Source: Hyphomicrobiales bacterium
GTDB taxonomy: Bacteria; Pseudomonadota; Alphaproteobacteria; JAPOUT01
Assembly: GCA_026708505.1 (NCBI GenBank)
Contig: JAPOUU010000011.1
Location: 1 to 64,000 of the forward strand
Length of the DNA: 64,000 nucleotides
Reading direction: 5' to 3'
The position numbers and the translations under genes are program-made. Positions 49,859 through 63,738 of this stretch are shown in pieces. Every line of letters starts with the position of its first letter. The first letter of the stretch is position 1. The notes beneath the pieces were generated by a model that was given only the letters and a program-made list of their open reading frames with translations, did not search any database and was not told where the DNA came from.

Positions 49859-49989
49859 GGGGCGGAACTATATTTTCACCATTAAAAAAAAGCAATGAAA
49901 AAAGCAACAGAAAATTAACTTCTCACGCGTAAAAAAGACATGTTGGGACGAAATCCCGATGCAACAAAAACAAACCTTTGGAGATAGCT

Positions 49990-50805
49990 ATGAGAAAACT
50001 TTCCTTTCTTTCTTTGGTGTTCGGCGCGGTGCTGGTGTGCGCAACAGCTACACCCGCGTTTGCGGACAACCGGAACGAAAACAGTCCGGCTGAGCGTGCG
50101 GAGAATGACCGCGGAGAAGCCCGGGGTGGTGAAAACAAACCGGAACGCAACGTTCCTGAACGCGACGTTCCCGAGATAGACAAGCCTGAACGCGACATTC
50201 CCGAGCGCGACGTTCCCGAGCGAGATGTTCCCGAGCGAGATGTTCCCGAGCGAGATGTTCCCGAGCGAGATGGAAAAGAAGTTGAACTTCCCGAGGTAGA
50301 GCTTCCGGAGATTGAACTTCCCGAGATCGAGCTTCCGGAAATTGAGATTCCCGAGAGCAAACTTCCAGAGAACGAACTTCCCGAGAGGAATGTTCCGGAG
50401 TTTGCGAAAAACCAACGCGAGAACGGTCCGATTGAGCGCAAAGAAGGCCGGAACAATGAAGACAAGGCAGCAAAACTTGAGGGTATCTTCGAGCGTGTCC
50501 TGCCCGATTTTGTGGAAGACCTGCTTGAAGGAAATCCAGTTGATCGCTCACGGAATGACCGCAAAGAAGACCGGAGCGATGAAGACAACGCAGCAAAACC
50601 CGAGGGCGTGCCCGAGAGTGTCGTGCCCGAGTTCGTAGAAAGCCCGCGCGAGAAAAGTCCGACCGAGCGCACGAAAAACGACCGCACAGAAGCACAGAAC
50701 GGTGAAAGCAGCGCAACAGCATTTGCAAGCGTATCCCGTCGTGTCGATCAAGACTGGGGCGACTGGCGCGGTTATGGCAGTTGGAAAAGTTCGCGCGGAC
50801 GTTAA
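49990..50805 (+). CDS. Secreted proline/glutamate-rich repeat protein
   Basis: A 271-residue protein with a clear signal peptide (cleavage after AFA near residue 25) and an extended, highly charged mature part. A block of pentapeptides of the VPERD type is followed by ELPEI-type pentapeptides (about residues 50-135). A second half contains two imperfect copies of a segment with NDRKEDRSDEDNAAKPEGVPE. The protein is predicted disordered and has no cysteine in the mature part. GGAG 6 bases upstream supports the ATG. I do not recognise a family; a cell-envelope or matrix role is a guess. Confidence 0.65.
   Translation: MRKLSFLSLVFGAVLVCATATPAFADNRNENSPAERAENDRGEARGGENKPERNVPERDVPEIDKPERDIPERDVPERDVPERDVPERDVPERDGKEVELPEVELPEIELPEIELPEIEIPESKLPENELPERNVPEFAKNQRENGPIERKEGRNNEDKAAKLEGIFERVLPDFVEDLLEGNPVDRSRNDRKEDRSDEDNAAKPEGVPESVVPEFVESPREKSPTERTKNDRTEAQNGESSATAFASVSRRVDQDWGDWRGYGSWKSSRGR
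50175..50390 (+). repeat. 15-bp tandem repeats encoding VPERD and ELPEI pentapeptides
   Basis: At least four near-identical 15-base units (GTTCCCGAGCGAGAT type) are followed by degenerate 15-base units coding for E-L-P-E-V/I. The array leaves both opposite-strand frames open, explaining long spurious antisense ORFs. Confidence 0.8.
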
Positions 50806-53012: not shown

Positions 53013-53088
53013 AAAGAATGAAGTAACATTACCGAAACCTTCAAATCACGAAAGACGAAAAAATGTCTACAAAAATCTCTGTACGCAA
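53013..53088 (+). repeat. Leader repeat copy 2 (before icd)
   Basis: The second copy of the roughly 75-base leader plus start-codon region described before the 194-residue gene. Identity is highest from AAAGAATG to CTTCAAA and from ATGTCTACAAAA onwards. Confidence 0.55.
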
Positions 53089-54283
53089 CCCTGTGGTCGA
53101 GCTTGACGGTGACGAGATGACCCGGGTCATCTGGCAACTCATTAAAGATAGACTCATCACACCAAACCTCGACATCGCACTCGAATATTACGACCTTTCC
53201 ATTCAATCGCGCGATGCCACCGGAGACCAAATCACCATTGACGCGGCAAAAGCAATTCAAAAACATGGTGTCGGGGTCAAATGCGCAACTATCACGCCGG
53301 ACGAGGCGCGGGTGGAGGAGTTTTCGCTGAAGAAGATGTGGAAGTCGCCGAACGGAACCATTCGCAACATTTTGGGAGGGACGGTCTTTCGCGAGCCGAT
53401 ATTGTGCCGAAACATCCCGCGGCTTGTTCCGGGCTGGACGATGCCCGTCGTCATCGGACGACACGCTTTCGGAGATCAATACCGCGCGACCGATTTTCTC
53501 ATTCCGGCAAAAGGAAAACTCACCGTCAAGTGGGAAGCACAAGACGGCAGCGAAACAATCGAGCATGAAGTCTATGATTTCCCCGGTTCGGGCATTGCGC
53601 TTTCAATGTTTAATCTTGACGACTCTATTCGCGACTTTGCACGCGCATGCATGAATCTCGCACTCGATAGAAAATGGCCGTTGTATCTTTCGACCAAAAA
53701 CACAATCCTCAAAGCTTACGATGGACGTTTCAAAGACATCTTCCAGGAAATTTACGAATCCGAGTTTCGCGAACGCTTCGAGGCCGGCAACACCACATAC
53801 GAACACAGATTGATTGATGACATGGTTGCCTCGGCGTTGAAATGGAACGGTGCGTATGTCTGGGCGTGCAAAAACTATGACGGAGACGTTCAGTCCGACT
53901 CTCTGGCACAGGGATTTGGATCGCTCGGCCTGATGACGAGCTTTCTGCTAACTCCGGACGGGAAGGTAATGGAGGCGGAAGCCGCGCACGGAACGGTCAC
54001 ACGACATTTTCGAGCGCACCAGCGCGGAGAAGAGACCTCGACCAACTCGATTGCCTCCATCTTCGCTTGGACGAAAGCGCTGGCATACCGCGGAAAACTC
54101 GACAATAACGGAGATCTCGTAGAGTTCGCCGAAATGCTCGAGAAAGTCTGTGTCCGCACTGTCGAAAGCGGATTCATGACAAAAGACCTGGCGTTGCTCG
54201 TCGGAGCGGAGCAAGGGTGGCTTTCAACGGAAGGATTTCTCAATAAGGTAGCGGAAGGTTTGGAAAAGAAGAGGGGAAAATAG
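53063..54283 (+). CDS. icd: NADP-dependent isocitrate dehydrogenase, eukaryote-like type
   Basis: A 406-residue TCA-cycle enzyme converting isocitrate to 2-oxoglutarate with NADP. It is of the type shared by mitochondria and many alphaproteobacteria: [22 protein letters not shown] near residue 9, [20 protein letters not shown] near 92, the [20 protein letters not shown] loop near 270 and [20 protein letters not shown] near 308. Catalytic Tyr and Lys positions appear normal. Start and length fit the family. Confidence 0.97.
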
Positions 54284-54396
54284 GGGGAAGTTCGGCTAAA
54301 TTTCGCAAGATTCGCCCGCTGTTTAAATAAGAAATTACAAAGACAAAAGTATTTTCTCCATAATTCTCAAAAAATTTTCACCTAAATGGAATAAGA

Positions 54397-54406
54397 GTGA
54401 TATACT
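54397..54406 (+). promoter_or_regulatory. Extended -10 promoter of the molybdoenzyme operon
   Basis: TGATATACT (TGn plus TATACT at 54401-54406) is an extended -10 element in an A+T-rich gap, about 90 bases upstream of the first peroxidase gene. No good -35 is seen. The following genes are spaced 3-15 bases apart and probably share this promoter. Confidence 0.45.
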
Positions 54407-54498
54407 GGAGTTGGAATCGTTATTGACCATCCTACTCACGGGACTTTAAAATGTGGATGATGAAAGCGATAGGGCAATGTAGAGTGAAGGAGGAATCC

Positions 54499-55575
54499 TT
54501 GAAGAACTTGGCGACTCTAACGGTTGTGGCATGGTTAAGCCTTACCCCTGCTCTCGCACAAGATGTGACGCCGGAACCCCCTTTGGATGTTAACGCGGCC
54601 AAGGTCGAATTGGGTAAACGGCTGTTCTACGATGTACGGCTATCCGGTGATACCACATTGTCATGTGCCAGTTGCCATCAGCCCGAAAATGCGTTCACCG
54701 ACGGTGAAGCGTTGTCGGCCGCCTACACCGGAGCGGCACACTTTAGAAACACCCCTACACTAGCCAACAGCGGTTTTCGCGATGCTTGGATGCACGATGG
54801 GCGCCTCGGCACCAATCTCAACGATGTAGTGCGGGAGATGATTACCGAAACGTACCTGATGAATATGGACATGCGCGTCATGCAGGAGCGTTTAAAGCAG
54901 GACCCTTTGTATGTCGAGATGTTTGCCGCGGCAGGAATGGGCGAACCATCGAATGGCGGGGCGCGCAGCGCACTTATGGAATTCATGAAGACAATTCAAT
55001 CACGCAACACGCCTTTCGACGCGGGTGCAATGTCGGCGGCGGCAAGACGGGGGCAGGCTATTTTCGAGGGTAAGGGAAATTGTTCCTCCTGCCATACGGG
55101 CACTCGCTTTACAGACGACAGGCCTCATAATACAGGCGTGCCGAACAATCCTGACATTTGGTCTGATCCGGAACGCCATTCTGCATTCGTCACCTACGCA
55201 AAGTTCATGGGTATCGAGAATTACATGAACATTCGCGAAGATTTAGGCGCCTACATCCGGACGCACCGTGACGAGACCAAACGCAGCTTCCTTACCCCAA
55301 CGCTCCGTGAACTGAAGTGGACCGCACCTTACATGCACAACGGAGTTTTTGCCACGCTTGAAGAAGTTATTGATTTTTATGATGCCGGCGGAGGCGAGGA
55401 TTCCCTTAAGGATTCCCGGTTGCGTCCGCTTGGCCTCATACCGTCCGAAAAAGCTGATTTGATAGCGTTTCTTGAGAGTTTGTCGGGTGACACGTTCGAC
55501 ATTGATGCCTACGTCTGGCGGAACGATGACTTCGATTACGAACTAATCGAAGATTGGCGCAACACCGAGAATTGA
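54499..55575 (+). CDS. Di-heme cytochrome c peroxidase-like protein, candidate IdrP1
   Basis: A 358-residue periplasmic protein with a signal peptide and two CxxCH heme sites (CASCH at 56-60, CSSCH at 195-199) in the arrangement of bacterial di-heme peroxidases and MauG. Further family elements are FRNTPTLANSGF and LKWTAPYMHNGVFATLEEVI. I chose a TTG start because AAGGAGG lies 5 bases upstream and the signal peptide then begins directly; an upstream ATG adds 16 odd residues. In iodate-reducing bacteria two such proteins accompany IdrAB, probably removing peroxide or hypoiodous intermediates. Which of the two is P1 is arbitrary here. Confidence 0.82.
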   Translation: MKNLATLTVVAWLSLTPALAQDVTPEPPLDVNAAKVELGKRLFYDVRLSGDTTLSCASCHQPENAFTDGEALSAAYTGAAHFRNTPTLANSGFRDAWMHDGRLGTNLNDVVREMITETYLMNMDMRVMQERLKQDPLYVEMFAAAGMGEPSNGGARSALMEFMKTIQSRNTPFDAGAMSAAARRGQAIFEGKGNCSSCHTGTRFTDDRPHNTGVPNNPDIWSDPERHSAFVTYAKFMGIENYMNIREDLGAYIRTHRDETKRSFLTPTLRELKWTAPYMHNGVFATLEEVIDFYDAGGGEDSLKDSRLRPLGLIPSEKADLIAFLESLSGDTFDIDAYVWRNDDFDYELIEDWRNTEN

Positions 55576-55586
55576 TGAGGACTAAC

Positions 55587-56714
55587 ATGATGCTTCGTTT
55601 CCTTGCTGTTTTTCTCACGGTCTCAACCATGGCTTGGGGAGCCGCGGCACAAGAGAACCTGCGCCCCGAAACTTTGGCGGCTCTTGAGCCTCCGGCCATT
55701 CCAAGTGACAACCCGATGACACCGGAAAAAATCGAATTGGGGAAGATGCTATTTTTCGACCCCATCCTGTCGGGGAATTTCGGCATGCCTTGTTCGGCTT
55801 GCCATTTGCCCGAGGCGGGATGGGCTGTACAAGCGCCGATTAGCATCGGTTACCCCGGAACGACTCACTGGCGCAACAGCCAGACGATAATTAACTCGGC
55901 CTATTACGGTAAACTTTTTTGGGCTGGTGCATCGAGATCACTGGAGTCCCAGGCTCGCTCCGCCGCGCGCGGCGCAGTTGCCGGAAACGGCGAGGATGAC
56001 ATGATGGAGGCGCGGCTTGCGTTTGTTCCGGAGTATCGTGAAGCCTTTAGAGAAGTCTTTGGCGACGATTGGCCGAATATCCGTCACGCCTACATGGCCA
56101 TTGCTGCATTTGAACGAACGCTGGTGCAAACCGACACGCCGTTTGATAATTACATGCGTGGGGACGATGACGCCCTTACCGCCCAACAAAAAAGGGGACT
56201 GGAACTGTTCGCGGGCAAGGCGGGGTGCACCTCTTGCCACAGCGGAGCAATGTTGACGGATCAAGCTTATTATAACATCGGTGTGCCGCCGTATGACGGT
56301 TGGGAAAACGACGAGCTCGCGCAAATCACTTTCCGCTACGAATTATATTCCAAGGGCGTAAGTGAAGAAAAATATCGCAAATTCAAGGACGACCCCGGGC
56401 TGTTCTTCCGGACAAAACAAAAAGCCGATTTCGGAAAGTTCCGGGTGCCGAGTCTGCGGTATACCAAATTCACTTATCCCTACATGCATAACGGGATGCT
56501 TGAAACGCTGCGCGATGTGGTCGTTTTTTACAATGAAGGCGGCGGCGAAAACGAGTTTTCCGCCACGAAATCCGAGATGATCCAACCTCTAGGCCTGAAC
56601 GAAGAAGAAATCGATGCGATCGTCGCGTTCCTTGAAAGCCTCTCGGGCGAGGAAATTCTGATCGATGAGCCCGACCTTCCCGAAATGCAACCGCTGCCCA
56701 TGGAACAGAACTGA
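55587..56714 (+). CDS. Di-heme cytochrome c peroxidase-like protein, candidate IdrP2
   Basis: A 375-residue paralog-like periplasmic protein with signal peptide (cleavage near GAAAQ), heme sites CSACH (69-73) and CTSCH (214-218), and the same late YPYMHNGMLETLRDVVVFYNEGGG segment. GAGGA 5 bases ahead supports ATG at 55587; an ATG overlapping the previous stop is an alternative. It is only distantly similar to the preceding gene product, so the two are not a recent duplication. Role as for its neighbour, inferred from the operon. Confidence 0.83.
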   Translation: MMLRFLAVFLTVSTMAWGAAAQENLRPETLAALEPPAIPSDNPMTPEKIELGKMLFFDPILSGNFGMPCSACHLPEAGWAVQAPISIGYPGTTHWRNSQTIINSAYYGKLFWAGASRSLESQARSAARGAVAGNGEDDMMEARLAFVPEYREAFREVFGDDWPNIRHAYMAIAAFERTLVQTDTPFDNYMRGDDDALTAQQKRGLELFAGKAGCTSCHSGAMLTDQAYYNIGVPPYDGWENDELAQITFRYELYSKGVSEEKYRKFKDDPGLFFRTKQKADFGKFRVPSLRYTKFTYPYMHNGMLETLRDVVVFYNEGGGENEFSATKSEMIQPLGLNEEEIDAIVAFLESLSGEEILIDEPDLPEMQPLPMEQN

Positions 56715-56718
56715 AGGA

Positions 56719-57315
56719 ATGAAAATGGAAACACGACTCGATCCCAAGATAGTGCAAGCCATAAACGGCGAGAACGACGAGGCGAAAAAGGCAGGAACCC
56801 GCCCATGCCTCATGAATCGACGGCAGTTTCTTCTCACCGGGGGAATTGCAACGACCGTGGTGATGGTCGGAATCCCGAACATGGCGGAAGCGCAAACTCC
56901 GGCTGTCATTTCAACATATCCCCGCAAATTCATTACAAAGCTTAGTTCGCTGAAAGTCGATGAACCTTTTGATTTCTTGTATCCGGATGAAGGCGACTAT
57001 TCGGAATCGATGCTGGTCAAACTCGGCACCAAGGCGGGAGGAGGCATTGGTCCCAAAGAAGATGTCGTTGGCTTCAATTACACCTGCACCCACCAAGGCG
57101 GTCCCTTGCAAGGCACCTACCAGGCGGCCGATAAGGCACTCGGACCATGTCCGCTGCATCTTACGACTTTTGATCTCACCCGGCACGGCATTTTCATCTC
57201 CGGTCAAGCATATCAATCGTTGCCTCAAGTGTTACTGGAACTCGAAGGCGATGACATTTTTGCCGTTGGTATGTTCGGCTTGATTTACGGCCGTTTTGAC
57301 AATCTTCGAGGATAG
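56719..57315 (+). CDS. Tat-exported Rieske subunit, AioB/IdrB family
   Basis: A 198-residue small subunit with a Tat signal (NRRQFLLTGG, residues 33-42) and a [2Fe-2S] Rieske fold using Cys123, His125, Cys144 and His147 (CTHQGGPL and CPLHLTTFD). It passes electrons between periplasmic c-type cytochromes and the molybdenum subunit, and would bring the latter through the Tat pore. The N-terminus before the twin arginine is unusually long (about 32 residues). It lies directly upstream of the catalytic subunit gene. Confidence 0.88.
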   Translation: MKMETRLDPKIVQAINGENDEAKKAGTRPCLMNRRQFLLTGGIATTVVMVGIPNMAEAQTPAVISTYPRKFITKLSSLKVDEPFDFLYPDEGDYSESMLVKLGTKAGGGIGPKEDVVGFNYTCTHQGGPLQGTYQAADKALGPCPLHLTTFDLTRHGIFISGQAYQSLPQVLLELEGDDIFAVGMFGLIYGRFDNLRG

Positions 57316-57324
57316 GAAAAAACT

Positions 57325-60000
57325 ATGTCGACACCATATTACATTCCTGAAGAATCTGTACCACTGCCGCCCCCGGACGCCGATGTTATCTCCACGGCTT
57401 GTGATTATTGCGTTGTGGCCTGCGGCTACAAAGTATACCGCTGGCCGGTAGCGGGCGGCAAAGTCGGCGGCCCCAAAGCCGAGGAAAACGCTTTTGGAGA
57501 AGATTTTCCCGTTGCACCACTCGGGAATTGGATAGCGCCGAACCAGCATAATATCGTGCTTCACAACGGCGAGCCGCACCACGTGGTCATTGTTCCCGAC
57601 AAGGGCACCGACTTCGTCAATTTTGACGGCAACTCCTCGATCAGGGGCGGAGCTCTGGCGAAGAAGGTCTACAACCCGCAGACGCCCACACGCGACAGGT
57701 TGAAATCGCCGATGATCAGGATGTTCGGAGTATTGATGCCGGTTACATGGGATTTTGCATTGGATATTGCGGCCGAGGTCGGCAACTATGTATTGAAACA
57801 ACACGGCACCAACGCTTACGGCGTCAAGACGTTCTCCTACGGCTACATGGAGAATACCTACGCCATCACAAAGTATGCTCTGCGCCACGTTCGCACCGCG
57901 AATTTCACGTTCCACGACACGCCGTCCGATGTAACTTCGACGCCGGGGTTTCGGGATGCCGGCTTCGACAATTTCGGACCGAGCTACGATGATTGGGCCG
58001 ACGCCGACACATTGTTGATGTGCGGCACGGACCCATACGAAACCAAAACAATCCTGTTTACGAATTTTATCATGCCGGCAATCCAGAATGGACAGAGGGC
58101 TATTTTCATGGTGCCGCGCAAGACAGCGGGGGTGGCCTATGCCGAGAAGAATGGCGGTTTGTACATCGACATTCAGCCGGGCACCGACTTGCCCGTGGTG
58201 CTTGCAATAGCACGGGTGATTGTCGAGAATGGCTGGGAAGACGCGGAATGGATCCAGCAGTGGGTCAACAACAAATGGGAATCGTCTTCCGGATTTGGTC
58301 AAGGTACGCGCAACACGCCTTGGCAATGGCGCACAACTTGGGGCAAGTTCCAAACAGCCGGTTTCGAAGACTGGAAGAAATGGCTGCTGGCGCAGGAGTA
58401 TTCGAAACCTGAAGTCGCCGCCGAAATGGCCCAGATTGACGTTGCAAAAATCTTTACCGCAGCGCGCTGGATGGCCGCACCGCGTGAAGACGGGTCGCGG
58501 CCAAAAACCTCCATCATGATCGAGAAAGGCTTTTATTGGTCGAACAACACCGGAAACACACAAGCCATTTCGGCCCTTGGCATCGTGTGCGGCTGCGGCG
58601 GTCGACCGGGCCAGGTCATTGGCCGCGCAGGAGGACATCAGCGCGGCGGACTGCGTGGCGGCGGGTATCCGCGCAACAAATCGCCCGAAAAACTACCGGG
58701 GCGGCGCCGGCGCGCTATCGACACAGACCGGTATTTGATGTCCGGACACACGCGACTCGCGCACGTAATAGGCACGACTTGGGTTCAAGCCATGTGCGGC
58801 ACACAATCGCTGCAGGCCAAGTTCGACGAACTGACCACGCGGAACCCGCATCAGGTGGCAAGCTTCAGCAAACAAGACATCATAGATACGCTGAAACGGC
58901 GTGTGGATTCCGGGGGCATGGTTGTCTGGAATCAGGACATTTATTTGGTTGATCCCATCGGCGCGCGTTATGCCGACATAGTTTTCCCTGCCTCGGGCTG
59001 GGGAGAGGACACTTTCACCCGTGCCAACGGCGAGCGTCGAATACGACTGTATCCCAAATTTTACGATGCGCCGGGCGAGTCCAAACCCGACTGGTGGATT
59101 ATTGCAAATCTCGCAAAGAAGATGGGCTTCGAGGGTTTTGACTGGAAAGACTCCAACGAGGTTCTTGAGGAAGGTGCAAGATTCTCGCGCGGCAGCCGCA
59201 AGGACTTTTTTATGGTCAAGGTTGCAGCGCAGCGCGAAGGCAAGACGTTGCACCAGAAGTTCGGCGAATTCGGCACCAACGGCATTCAAGGTCCCGTGCT
59301 TATGGACAGGGACGGCAATCTAATTGAAACAAAACGGTTGCATGACGTGAACCGTTCGCTTCCCGAAGAGGGTCCCATCGGTAGCGCCGTCTTCAACAAA
59401 AAACTCACGCACTTCAACAGCCAGACCGGCAAATGCAACATACAAAAAGCACCATGGGATTTATTCTCCAGCTACTGGGAGTGGCTGAAGCCGCGCGAAG
59501 ATGAAATCTGGATTAGTTCCGGTCGTATTAACGAACGCTGGCAGTCCGGTTATGACGATCGACGCAGACCCTATATCGTACAGCGCTGGCCGGAAAACTG
59601 GATCGAGATACATCCGAAAGTCGCCGCAGCCAGAAACATAGAATCCGGTGATTACGTACAGGTTTACTCCGACCGTATTCCGGTGCAAAACAACACGATT
59701 GTCGGTGTCGAAGGATCGGATTTTGATTTCGCTACGTTGCTCAAGAACGGGCATATTGAATTGACTCGTGCATCAATCACGGCGGTTGCAATTGTCACCC
59801 CGGCAGTGAAGGAAAACCTGGGGTATATGGATTTCCTCCATACCGCCCAGCCTGCAAACGCGCTTGCAGGCCGGGTCGTTGACTGGATCAGCGGTAATTA
59901 CAACTACAAAATGGGTGTGGGGAAAGTGCAAAAGATAGGCGAAAGTCCCTACAAAAAACAGTTTAGGTCAATGTCCTTCGCACGTCGCGATATCGCCTGA
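57325..60000 (+). CDS. Molybdopterin oxidoreductase of the AioA/IdrA family, candidate iodate reductase catalytic subunit
   Basis: An 891-residue bis-MGD enzyme. Cys26, Cys29 and Cys33 (CDYCVVAC) bind a [3Fe-4S] cluster, with serine (104/105) where a fourth cysteine would be, as in arsenite oxidase. The active-site segment GRAGGHQ (Arg434, His438) matches AioA, but the other pocket segment is FSYGYMENTY, with Tyr172 where AioA has FDHGG and an arsenite-binding histidine; Glu176 is retained. With about 890 residues it is longer than typical AioA (about 825) and close to IdrA. Context of two di-heme peroxidases and a Rieske subunit supports IdrA. It has no signal of its own and would be co-exported by the Rieske subunit. 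Confidence 0.8.
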   Translation: MSTPYYIPEESVPLPPPDADVISTACDYCVVACGYKVYRWPVAGGKVGGPKAEENAFGEDFPVAPLGNWIAPNQHNIVLHNGEPHHVVIVPDKGTDFVNFDGNSSIRGGALAKKVYNPQTPTRDRLKSPMIRMFGVLMPVTWDFALDIAAEVGNYVLKQHGTNAYGVKTFSYGYMENTYAITKYALRHVRTANFTFHDTPSDVTSTPGFRDAGFDNFGPSYDDWADADTLLMCGTDPYETKTILFTNFIMPAIQNGQRAIFMVPRKTAGVAYAEKNGGLYIDIQPGTDLPVVLAIARVIVENGWEDAEWIQQWVNNKWESSSGFGQGTRNTPWQWRTTWGKFQTAGFEDWKKWLLAQEYSKPEVAAEMAQIDVAKIFTAARWMAAPREDGSRPKTSIMIEKGFYWSNNTGNTQAISALGIVCGCGGRPGQVIGRAGGHQRGGLRGGGYPRNKSPEKLPGRRRRAIDTDRYLMSGHTRLAHVIGTTWVQAMCGTQSLQAKFDELTTRNPHQVASFSKQDIIDTLKRRVDSGGMVVWNQDIYLVDPIGARYADIVFPASGWGEDTFTRANGERRIRLYPKFYDAPGESKPDWWIIANLAKKMGFEGFDWKDSNEVLEEGARFSRGSRKDFFMVKVAAQREGKTLHQKFGEFGTNGIQGPVLMDRDGNLIETKRLHDVNRSLPEEGPIGSAVFNKKLTHFNSQTGKCNIQKAPWDLFSSYWEWLKPREDEIWISSGRINERWQSGYDDRRRPYIVQRWPENWIEIHPKVAAARNIESGDYVQVYSDRIPVQNNTIVGVEGSDFDFATLLKNGHIELTRASITAVAIVTPAVKENLGYMDFLHTAQPANALAGRVVDWISGNYNYKMGVGKVQKIGESPYKKQFRSMSFARRDIA

Positions 60001-60008
60001 GACTACTC

Positions 60009-62132
60009 TTGCCAAGAGCACACGGCGACACACTGATTTCAGTTGAAACAAATGAAGCGGCAGGCGGCATCGCCCGTTTGCTGAGTCAAGATAACGAGTT
60101 GATTCGTAGCGCCGCCCTTCGTGCGTACACAGTGCTGGCTTCGGATGCAGACGTGCGCGAGGCTTTGAGGACGGCATTAACGGACCAGGATCCCGACATT
60201 CGTTCCGATGCCATGGAACGTCTTGTGACACTCGCCCGCCCGGAGGACGTTTCCACGCTGATGGCATCCTTGGAAGGCGACCCCGTTCGCGAGGTAAAAT
60301 TGGCGGCGATTCAGGCGCTTTCCAACATTGATGGCAGGGATTCCATTGCTCTTCTCCGCAAACTCGTTCTATCAAAAAGTGAAAACAGCATTGCTTGGGA
60401 AGATGAAGGTAGTGATTGGGACGATTGGCTTGATGTGCAAATAGCCGCAATTGCCGCGCTCGGACAGATGGGAGCGACCGAGGCAATAGAGGACATTCTT
60501 GCGGCACGCGCGGATGAATTTGCGCAGGACCTTGATGTTGTCGCATTCGAAGCTTTCTGCAAAATGGGACCGAACGGGATTGGTGCACTGCTGGGAATTC
60601 TCCGGGACGAAAGGGATTCTGATTTCCGGCGCGCCGCTACTGCTATCGCGTCGGCTTCGGTTGAAGCATTGTCTCCGCACATCGATGCCCTGCTCCGCTC
60701 AAAGGACCCTGATGTTAGAATCATAGCGCTCAACGCTTTACCTCCCGATGATTCGCGCGTCGAACAATTGGCTCTCTCGGACCCGTCAAGCGATGTGCGG
60801 AAACGGGCTCTGCGTCATGCGGGCAAAATAAACGCAAAACTTATTGAAGAGGTTTTGAGCGATCCCGACGAAAATGTACAGGCGGAAGCATTGTTGCTTC
60901 TGGATGGGAAAATTTCATCTCATTTGCACGAGGTGCTTGTTGAAAACATGTTGCTTTGGCTTCGCCATGCGGGTGCGAATCTTGCCACTGCTGCGGCAAG
61001 CGCCTTGCCGTGTTTTGCGCCGGACCGCTCTAAAGCGCCGCTACTGGAATTAATCGCCGATACCGAACGGCCGCTTGAAGCACGAGTCGAGGCAGTGAAA
61101 GCATTGGCTGAAATAACACCTCCGATTTCGTCCGACAGCTATGCGGATATCTTAACGAACCCTGCCCAGCAGGTGCGGGTCGCTGCACTAAAACAATTGT
61201 CCCGGTATGCGGAAACGGATGACCGTTTGGCAACAAACACCATTGCAGTCGCTATAAGCGGAGCGCTCGTGCAAACGTCTGCGGCCGCCCAGCGCAACAG
61301 CGAAGACGACCAATATGATGTTGCAATGCCTAAGGGAGAAGACGGGCCACTGCGGATTCGCATTACCAGGGAAGGCGATATTGTAGAGGGCGAAAACGCT
61401 GATCGAGAATCAACGTTGCAAAAAATTATCTCGGCAGGAGAATCTGCCGTTGAAGAAGCTCCAAACGCAGAAGCCGAGGACACACCGGAGGAACGGCCCG
61501 CAAAACGTCTCAAGCGAAAACCGGTTGAAGGTCCAATGGATGTTGCGCCTTCCCTTCAACTCGATTCAATTCGAATTTGTGGAACCGTAGTCAATGGGAA
61601 AATAAAAGAAGCTATATTGAACAAGGCCTGCGACGGTAAAGACGAAATCAGACAAGCTGTCTGGTCGGCAATCGCAAAATGGCCACGAGAAGAAAATTAC
61701 TCCGACGAGGTTTTGGTCGCGGCAAAATCGGCGATGACGGACACTATCCCCATCGTGCGTCAAGCTGCATTTGGCGTTCTGGCAAAAACGGATATCCCGG
61801 CAGAATGTTTAAAACAGGCATTGGGAGATGAAGATGCGCTCGTACGAACCGAAGCCGTTGCCCGCCTGTCGGCAAAAGCCGCACTCGACTTTATGGCCGA
61901 CTCTGCTCCACCTGTTCGTCGGGCGGCCATTGCACGAATAGTCGCAGATAAAAACCTTGAATTGGCAAAAACGGCAGCCAGTCTACTGCTCAAAGCGGAG
62001 CATGTTGACACCTTGGGAGATCTTTTCAAGGTTTCGAAAGATGCGCGATTAACAAGCATCGCCAATATTTCAAAATTGGAATCCGGAAAGCAATTGCTGG
62101 TTTTGCTGGAGGCTCTCGCAAAATCGGCTTAA
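60009..62132 (+). CDS. HEAT-repeat protein coupled to the molybdoenzyme
   Basis: A 707-residue protein made of HEAT/PBS-lyase-type helical repeats in two blocks (about residues 15-420 and 530-700), joined by an acidic, probably disordered linker (about 425-515, with EEAPNAEAEDTPEERPAK). Typical repeat phrases are DPVREVKLAAIQALSNI and DPSSDVRKRALRHAG. It has no signal peptide or membrane segment and so is probably cytoplasmic. The gene starts (TTG) 8 bases after the catalytic subunit, implying co-expression. A dedicated maturation or Tat proof-reading scaffold is my inference; the exact start is uncertain because no ATG is near. Confidence 0.75.
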   Translation: MPRAHGDTLISVETNEAAGGIARLLSQDNELIRSAALRAYTVLASDADVREALRTALTDQDPDIRSDAMERLVTLARPEDVSTLMASLEGDPVREVKLAAIQALSNIDGRDSIALLRKLVLSKSENSIAWEDEGSDWDDWLDVQIAAIAALGQMGATEAIEDILAARADEFAQDLDVVAFEAFCKMGPNGIGALLGILRDERDSDFRRAATAIASASVEALSPHIDALLRSKDPDVRIIALNALPPDDSRVEQLALSDPSSDVRKRALRHAGKINAKLIEEVLSDPDENVQAEALLLLDGKISSHLHEVLVENMLLWLRHAGANLATAAASALPCFAPDRSKAPLLELIADTERPLEARVEAVKALAEITPPISSDSYADILTNPAQQVRVAALKQLSRYAETDDRLATNTIAVAISGALVQTSAAAQRNSEDDQYDVAMPKGEDGPLRIRITREGDIVEGENADRESTLQKIISAGESAVEEAPNAEAEDTPEERPAKRLKRKPVEGPMDVAPSLQLDSIRICGTVVNGKIKEAILNKACDGKDEIRQAVWSAIAKWPREENYSDEVLVAAKSAMTDTIPIVRQAAFGVLAKTDIPAECLKQALGDEDALVRTEAVARLSAKAALDFMADSAPPVRRAAIARIVADKNLELAKTAASLLLKAEHVDTLGDLFKVSKDARLTSIANISKLESGKQLLVLLEALAKSA

Positions 62133-62234
62133 CCCATCGTGTAAACGCTCGCCGCGACTCTCTCGCCTTTTACAAAGACAGGCATGTTGGGTATTTCACT
62201 TCCGTGTCAGCGCCGGATTTACGCTTCAAGAGAT

Positions 62235-62708
62235 TTATTCTTTTGCGCCTTCTTCACGCATGTAGGTAATCACGTCCAAGCGATCCTGCTCTTTGCGCAA
62301 TCCTCCGAACGTCATTTTCCCACCTTTCAAAAATTCTCTCGGCTTGCGTAAATATGCATCCAAACTCTCTACATCCCAAACCAGCCCCGCTTCAGCCCGC
62401 TCAATCAACGCCTTTGAGTATTTGAACCCTTCCACAGCGCCGGCAGCATTATCCACTATACCCCAAAGATTAGGACCAATCCGGCTTCGACCATCTTTTT
62501 CCACCGTGTGACAAGCCTTGCATTTGCGGAAGACTTTTTCTCCCCGCATCGCGTCGCCGGAAACGGCATTTTCCGCAGTTTCTTGGGTGCCGTCTTGGGC
62601 AAGCAGATCTTCCGGCAGGACAGCAGCCAATCCAACCAAAAGAAGAAATACCGCCATCGCAACGAAAGCTCGTGGCCGGGACAGATAATCAAAGATTCTC
62701 CAATTCAT
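62235..62708 (-). CDS. Membrane-anchored class I cytochrome c
   Basis: A 157-residue cytochrome with an N-terminal anchor (about residues 14-32), heme site CKACH (63-67) and axial methionine Met132 (GGKMTFGG), similar in layout to the c552/CycM type that links the bc1 complex with terminal reductases. It converges on the HEAT-repeat gene with about 100 bases between. It is a plausible electron donor to the Rieske/molybdenum complex, but could equally be a general respiratory carrier. Confidence 0.85.
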   Translation of the reverse strand: MNWRIFDYLSRPRAFVAMAVFLLLVGLAAVLPEDLLAQDGTQETAENAVSGDAMRGEKVFRKCKACHTVEKDGRSRIGPNLWGIVDNAAGAVEGFKYSKALIERAEAGLVWDVESLDAYLRKPREFLKGGKMTFGGLRKEQDRLDVITYMREEGAKE

Positions 62709-62981
62709 TAGAACGCACCTTTCTTAAAGCAAATTTCATCTCATTCGGTTATCTTCCGATTATAGATTCCCAATTTTAAAATTCAACAACTGCTGTAATC
62801 ACAACATCAAGAGATAAGAAAACCGCTCTCGCCCGTAATGCCGGGGTCAATACAGGTAATCCGAATCGGCTCCCCGAAACGGCTAACATGGTTTTTACTG
62901 AACCGCGGGAGCAATGGCACCCCCTCCGAAGTGGTTCGGCGCGCTCGGGAACGGACAATATCCCTCGAAAACCTCTCAAAA

Positions 62982-63049
62982 CCCCCGCAAATCGCCCGAA
63001 AATTGCCTCTATCCCGGTATATCCCGCAATTTTCGGCGAAAAACGGGGG
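62982..63049. repeat. Long imperfect inverted repeat
   Basis: Arms 62982-63006 and 63026-63049 pair over about 20 bp (6 bp CCCCCG/CGGGGG, an internal loop, 4 bp with a one-base bulge, then 10 bp CGAAAATTGC/GCAATTTTCG) around a 19-base loop. On the plus strand it is followed by a T-rich run, so it could act as a terminator or be part of a small RNA. Confidence 0.65.
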
Positions 63050-63078
63050 GATTTGTTATTTTTCCCGCTTCGGCATAA

Positions 63079-63119
63079 TTTGAGATTTTCCCGCGATTTG
63101 CGCGGGATTTTGAGATTTT
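63079..63119. repeat. Hairpin bracketed by direct repeats
   Basis: CCCGCG (63090-63095) pairs with CGCGGG (63101-63106). The hairpin sits between two copies of TTTGAGATTTT (63079-63089 and 63109-63119). Confidence 0.6.
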
Positions 63120-63317
63120 TACGGGTTTGGGGTATAAATCACCTAAAGGGAGCGAAAGCCCCGTCGGCGATTTGGGAGCGAGACCTCTGAATTTGTTGTT
63201 TGTTTCGTTTTTTTAAAAAATTTGCGGAATAAAACAAGGCAAATTCGTAAAAACAAATAGACTGGAAGACCGAAAAAACAAACTCAACCGATTCAAGATA
63301 CCGCCTGCTCTATTCTG

Positions 63318-63372: not shown

Positions 63373-63738
63373 ATGACCGACTTTCTTCTCTCCTATCTGC
63401 CTATACTCATCTTCGCAGGCATCGCAGCCGTTATCGGAATTGCGCTGATGGCGTCCGCTTTCGTGCTCGCACCCAACAACCCTGACACGGAAAAAACTTC
63501 CATATACGAGTGCGGGTTTCCGGCTTTCGATGATGCGCGGATGAAATTCGATGTTAAATTCTACCGTGTTGCAATTTTATTTATCATCTTTGATCTCGAA
63601 GTTGCATTTCTGTTTCCCTGGGCTGTTGCGTTTAACGATATCGGTGCGTTTGGATTCATATCGATGATGATTTTCCTCGCAGTACTCACCATCGGATTCA
63701 TATACGAATGGAAAAAGGGAGCTCTCGAATGGGATTAG
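63373..63738 (+). CDS. nuoA: NADH-quinone oxidoreductase subunit A
   Basis: A 121-residue membrane subunit of respiratory complex I with three spans. The conserved loop [20 protein letters not shown] (near residue 47) contains the complex I cysteine that is exposed in the deactive form in mitochondria. The late FLFPWAVAF segment is also diagnostic. It opens the nuo operon and overlaps nuoB by 10 bases. Confidence 0.97.

Follow-up and report, generated by a model that had tools for sequence, protein, structure and literature searches.

Marine bacterial iodate reduction helps to set sea-surface iodide, and iodide affects ozone. To our knowledge, the strains for which genetics or growth has proven iodate respiration are beta- or gammaproteobacteria. 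Iodate reductase (Idr) clusters consist of four genes, published in the order idrP2–idrP1–idrB–idrA (PMC10149662). IdrAB draws electrons from cytochrome c to reduce iodate to hypoiodous acid, and oxidants are cleared by the two peroxidases (PMC8692401). The motifs described for Azoarcus sp. DN11 are CX2CX3CX70S in IdrA, CXHX18CX2H together with a Tat signal in IdrB, and two CX2CH per peroxidase (PMC10149662). Among the Alphaproteobacteria, iodate reduction has been shown for Aliiroseovarius sediminilitoris, Roseovarius azorensis and Notoacmeibacter marinus; the aerobic species tested reduced iodate under low oxygen and did not grow on it anaerobically, and a role for iodate as an electron sink was suggested (PMC11445184).

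Here we describe an operon of this known kind, horizontally acquired, in a lineage not known for iodate reductase. It lies in a 64,000-nucleotide stretch of DNA (the window) at the left end of a contig of 144.5 kb, in a genome of 2.25 Mb (121 contigs, 93% complete). The locus is very probably a periplasmic Idr operon, acquired by horizontal transfer and inserted, as 8.9 kb of DNA, between icd and nuoA. It carries the iodate-reductase trait to another small-genome lineage, by a clean insertion for which the empty site is available.

Gene cluster and genomic island

The features of the locus are as follows.

53063–54283, + strand: icd, left flank (sister-genome protein 94% identical)
54287–63232, no strand: acquired island (blastn of the flanks against contig 25 of genome G001)
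54451–55575, + strand: di-heme cytochrome c peroxidase-like protein in the idrP2 position, Sec-type N-terminus (CCP_MauG, E = 3e-38; in other idr loci, the first peroxidase is its positional counterpart)
55590–56714, + strand: di-heme cytochrome c peroxidase-like protein in the idrP1 position, Sec-type N-terminus (CCP_MauG, E = 2e-42)
56725–57315, + strand: idrB, Rieske [2Fe–2S] subunit with twin-arginine signal (arsenite_ox_S above cut-off; RRQFL; CTHx18CPLH)
57325–60000, + strand: idrA, molybdopterin catalytic subunit with [3Fe–4S] motif, 891 aa
60009–62132, + strand: HEAT-repeat protein gene, 707 aa, cytoplasmic; the fifth conserved gene
62235–62708, − strand: single-haem class I cytochrome c (Cytochrom_C) within the island, candidate electron donor
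63373–63738, + strand: nuoA, right flank (sister-genome protein 98% identical)

The first-pass annotation of this DNA had described a co-directional, tightly spaced peroxidase pair, Rieske subunit and molybdoenzyme. This description is confirmed: the reading frames between 54451 and 60000 are intact, all on the + strand, and separated by about 9–14 bp. The limits it gave, 54397–60000, hold approximately on the left, where the edge falls a little before the first start codon, and fall short on the right, where they exclude the fifth gene. The order P1-P2-B-A has to be corrected, because in published usage the first gene is called idrP2 and the second idrP1, and the window thus has the order P2-P1-B-A of published idr clusters. 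The reading frame of idrB is open from 56665, and the start at 56725 is more likely from ribosome-binding-site spacing. Across the five-gene run from idrP2 to the HEAT gene the intergenic gaps are about 8–14 bp, so short that co-transcription is likely. Since the identical four genes recur in identical order in dozens of independent genomes, their arrangement is not due to chance.

That an island had been inserted at the icd–nuo core junction, as previously suggested, can be seen directly in the sister genome G001, which belongs to the same genus. There, icd and nuoA are still together, 264 bp apart, whereas the window has 8946 bp at the same site; the flanks align to contig 25 of G001 at 86% nucleotide identity up to position 54286 and again from 63233. 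The empty site in the sister genome establishes a real insertion. IdrA was found in one of the four genomes of the order, that of the window, and the island cytochrome c has relatives of only 44–58% identity elsewhere in the order. With core genes on either side of the island in one long contig, misbinning is unlikely. The island genes have a GC content (0.50–0.55) close to the 0.554 of the window. No tRNA or notable repeats were found at the island borders, as published for Aromatoleum (PMC8801600), and the mobile-element marks sought there were absent.

Many alphaproteobacterial idr loci (within L016–L095) have an adjacent response regulator and PAS histidine kinase, and others in this set have Crp-type regulator, MoeA or DUF2478 genes nearby. 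The window island has none of these; moaA was found in the window genome. A family of secreted proteins of about 160–200 aa occurs within about 5–6 kb of idrA at alpha- and gammaproteobacterial loci (L018, L041, L071, L092, L111, L124 and 15 others; the L092 member has no Pfam match). From its H...C..H....M pattern it looks like a type I, pseudoazurin-like copper protein and would be a candidate electron donor; it was not seen in the window island. The idr locus of an Anaerolineae MAG (L083) is nearly the same as the alphaproteobacterial L072, so that its contig is probably misbinned rather than evidence of a Chloroflexota iodate reducer. Elsewhere in the window, the reading frame at 49978–50805 (+ strand) has a start resembling a signal and acidic repeats in tandem (ERDVPERDVPE..., ELPEIELPEIELPE), predicting a low-complexity, possibly exported product.

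A conserved HEAT-repeat partner

The fifth gene of the run is apparently an unnamed fifth partner of the alphaproteobacterial idr system. Among 80 named IdrA loci, sequence extends for at least 690 bp downstream of idrA in 77, and all 77 carry the HEAT gene there, on the same strand. In a class-wide sample of 385 genomes, the family was found in 10 of the 11 with IdrA and in none of the other 374 (at least 170 bits in carriers, next best 57 bits; Fisher p about 6e-19, with kinship among genomes ignored); in the eleventh, idrA lies at a contig end. A natural case of idrA and the HEAT gene being apart is provided by contig 119 of genome G287, where the HEAT gene is kept about 13.5 kb downstream of idrA, on the same strand. 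In an independent, phylum-wide sample, the family occurs only in the window genome and in the other genome with a close IdrA (G666), and is absent from three genomes whose IdrA is more distant and from four that have AioA, the catalytic subunit of arsenite oxidase. It is likewise absent from the beta- and gammaproteobacterial idr loci, including those of Vibrio, Azonexus and Thiothrix, and from the AioA loci. A deeply branching alphaproteobacterial IdrA (L123, 56% identity) is accompanied by a diverged copy. HEAT distances track IdrA distances (Spearman 0.69, 65 loci), and the HEAT protein evolves far faster, with a mean identity of 31% against 82% for IdrA. In the searched texts of idr papers, other than the 2020 Pseudomonas SCT paper, a HEAT partner is not mentioned; the gene may be drawn without comment in that paper or in figure panels.

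The window HEAT protein has no signal-like hydrophobic N-terminus. Pfam finds HEAT repeats only, and the NCBIfam matches are generic and all below cut-off. Its AlphaFold model (pLDDT 87) consists of two α-solenoid lobes with a disordered, acidic linker between them, a HEAT solenoid rather than a TorD/NarJ fold, and a motif of tryptophan and acidic residues, W[ED]...W[DE].W, is present in 69 of 73 family members.

We tentatively propose that the HEAT protein may be specific to this system and assist, in the cytoplasm, the assembly of IdrBA ahead of its Tat export. As it is predicted to be cytoplasmic whereas the enzyme is periplasmic, it would most likely act before export, in cofactor insertion, IdrA–IdrB pairing or Tat proofreading. 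It would not be needed for the chemistry itself, because the beta- and gammaproteobacterial systems work without it. It is about as probable, however, that the protein is instead a regulator or a scaffold for signalling, which is the main rival reading, or a passenger carried along with the island: HEAT solenoids have many binding partners, the fold search returned only generic HEAT/ARM scaffolds (PP2A-A, karyopherins, CAND1), the sequence evolves fast, and the IdrB signal region shows no clear difference between HEAT-bearing and HEAT-less loci, with extended N-regions in both. Yet a mere passenger would not persist with the distribution found (77/77 loci; 10/11 IdrA genomes against 0/374 others), nor is retention at a distance of about 13.5 kb what a passenger would show, and no DNA-binding domain was found.

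In a wider and still more tentative proposal, alphaproteobacterial Idr would be a five-gene system and the HEAT protein, with its fold unlike TorD/NarJ, a dedicated factor of a new class for molybdoenzyme assembly or export proofreading, needed for active IdrBA. As a candidate for a part still missing from the Idr system, the HEAT gene is strong and easy to test, and this conserved partner is the part of the locus that deserves follow-up. As a genetic marker it also tells the alphaproteobacterial form apart from the beta- and gammaproteobacterial form, in which respiration was proven.

Enzyme identity and substrate

All the motifs published for the Idr proteins of Azoarcus DN11 are present in the window proteins. 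Each peroxidase has CCP_MauG and cytochrome c domains and two CxxCH motifs (at residues 72 and 211 in the product of 54451–55575), and a hydrophobic N-terminus judged by inspection to be a Sec signal. The best PDB match of the 55590–56714 product is the bacterial cytochrome c551 peroxidase 1eb7 (E = 6e-48). Both match, in order, the peroxidases of other idr loci, including those of Azonexus (44 and 57% identity), and not unrelated MauG proteins. IdrB has an RRQFL Tat signal and the Rieske motif CxHx18CxxH, and the [3Fe–4S] motif of IdrA is formed by C26, C29, C33 and S104.

The window IdrA is 75–91% identical to IdrA of dozens of marine Alphaproteobacteria (85% to that of an Aliiroseovarius) and about 50% identical to Azonexus IdrA, the nearest sequence compared of the beta/gammaproteobacterial respirer type; identity to AioA is about 27–30%. 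A maximum-likelihood tree of 48 proteins, with AioA represented among others by NT-26 and Thermus thermophilus HB8 and with IdrA sequences other than the reference proteins of Pseudomonas SCT, Denitromonas and Azoarcus DN11, splits into AioA and IdrA-type groups, both with support of 100. The 57325–60000 protein falls on the IdrA side, in neither the AioA clade nor a third one, within a supported 15-row clade that contains an Aliiroseovarius. In AioA structures, a set of His, Glu, Arg and His residues forms the substrate pocket. At the position of Glu207 in NT-26 AioA, all 8 AioA have Glu and none of 92 IdrA does (Ser in 87, Asp in 4, Ala in 1), and the His, Arg and His that neighbour it do not vary across the alignment. 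The window IdrA accordingly has Ser205 in place of the glutamate and keeps the other three.

It is improbable that this clade reduces another oxyanion, such as bromate or chlorate, or performs another iodine redox step, with iodate as a side substrate. The substrate assignment for most of the alphaproteobacterial IdrA clade rests on sequence, and its aerobic members do not grow on iodate, but idrA transcription in R. azorensis responds to 0.1 µM iodate, the level of seawater, and three alphaproteobacterial species reduce 2 mM iodate (PMC11445184). More improbable still is a variant AioBA arsenite oxidase acting on arsenite or antimonite in the periplasm: although both subunits exceed the NCBIfam cut-offs (arsenite_ox_L, 405 against 359; arsenite_ox_S, 115 bits against 96) and AioA is the nearest solved structure to the catalytic subunit, an arsenite oxidase identity is contradicted by the low identity and fully supported separate clade, by the pocket residue, and by the neighbourhood, the AioA loci examined having aioX/aioR- or glp-type neighbours and no peroxidase pair, as the earlier contrast between aio and idr operons had anticipated. 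An Azonexus plasmid copy of idr is annotated as arsenite oxidase. Because automatic annotation gives Idr enzymes this name, iodine cycling is probably under-counted in genomes.

Proposed function

The scheme given here combines the gene content, order, clade, island and co-occurrence described above with catalysis and a peroxidase role taken from the literature and a HEAT role that we infer. IdrA, carrying Mo-bisMGD and [3Fe–4S], and the Rieske subunit IdrB would be assembled in the cytoplasm, perhaps with the HEAT protein as their specific assembly factor, and exported jointly by means of the Tat signal of IdrB. Electrons from the bc1/cytochrome c pool would reach IdrAB, possibly via the island cytochrome c, and IdrAB would convert iodate to hypoiodous acid and finally iodide, while the two di-heme peroxidases would dispose of peroxide or other oxidants.

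The first-pass annotation had favoured dissimilatory iodate respiration or iodine redox chemistry. Clade, peroxidases and motifs uphold the idr system. Dissimilatory respiration goes too far for this organism, because the tested aerobic relatives did not grow anaerobically on iodate; its likely use of the enzyme would be oxygen-limited iodate reduction as an electron sink.

Comparison with known systems

The idrABP1P2 island of Pseudomonas sp. SCT, Denitromonas sp. IR-12 and Azoarcus sp. DN11 shares with the window the four genes in the order P2-P1-B-A, the metal-binding motifs, the export signals and an island-like acquisition. The window differs in having the HEAT gene after idrA and a cytochrome c gene on the opposite strand, and in having no adjacent two-component system or moaA. 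The idr of the marine aerobic Alphaproteobacteria (Roseovarius, Aliiroseovarius and Notoacmeibacter), compared here via another Aliiroseovarius species, belongs to the same clade and, in that Aliiroseovarius, has the same five-gene order including the HEAT gene; particular to the window are the 2.25-Mb genome, an order represented by four genomes, and the icd–nuoA site. AioBA resembles the window enzyme in its Rieske and molybdoenzyme architecture, its [3Fe–4S] motif and three of the four substrate-pocket residues, whereas the window protein lies in a separate clade, with serine for glutamate, a peroxidase pair and no aioXSR. Finally, the TorD/NarJ chaperones offer a parallel, as yet a proposed one, of a cytoplasmic and all-helical protein, encoded in the operon, that partners one exported molybdoenzyme, but they differ in fold, the window candidate being a HEAT solenoid of about 700 aa.
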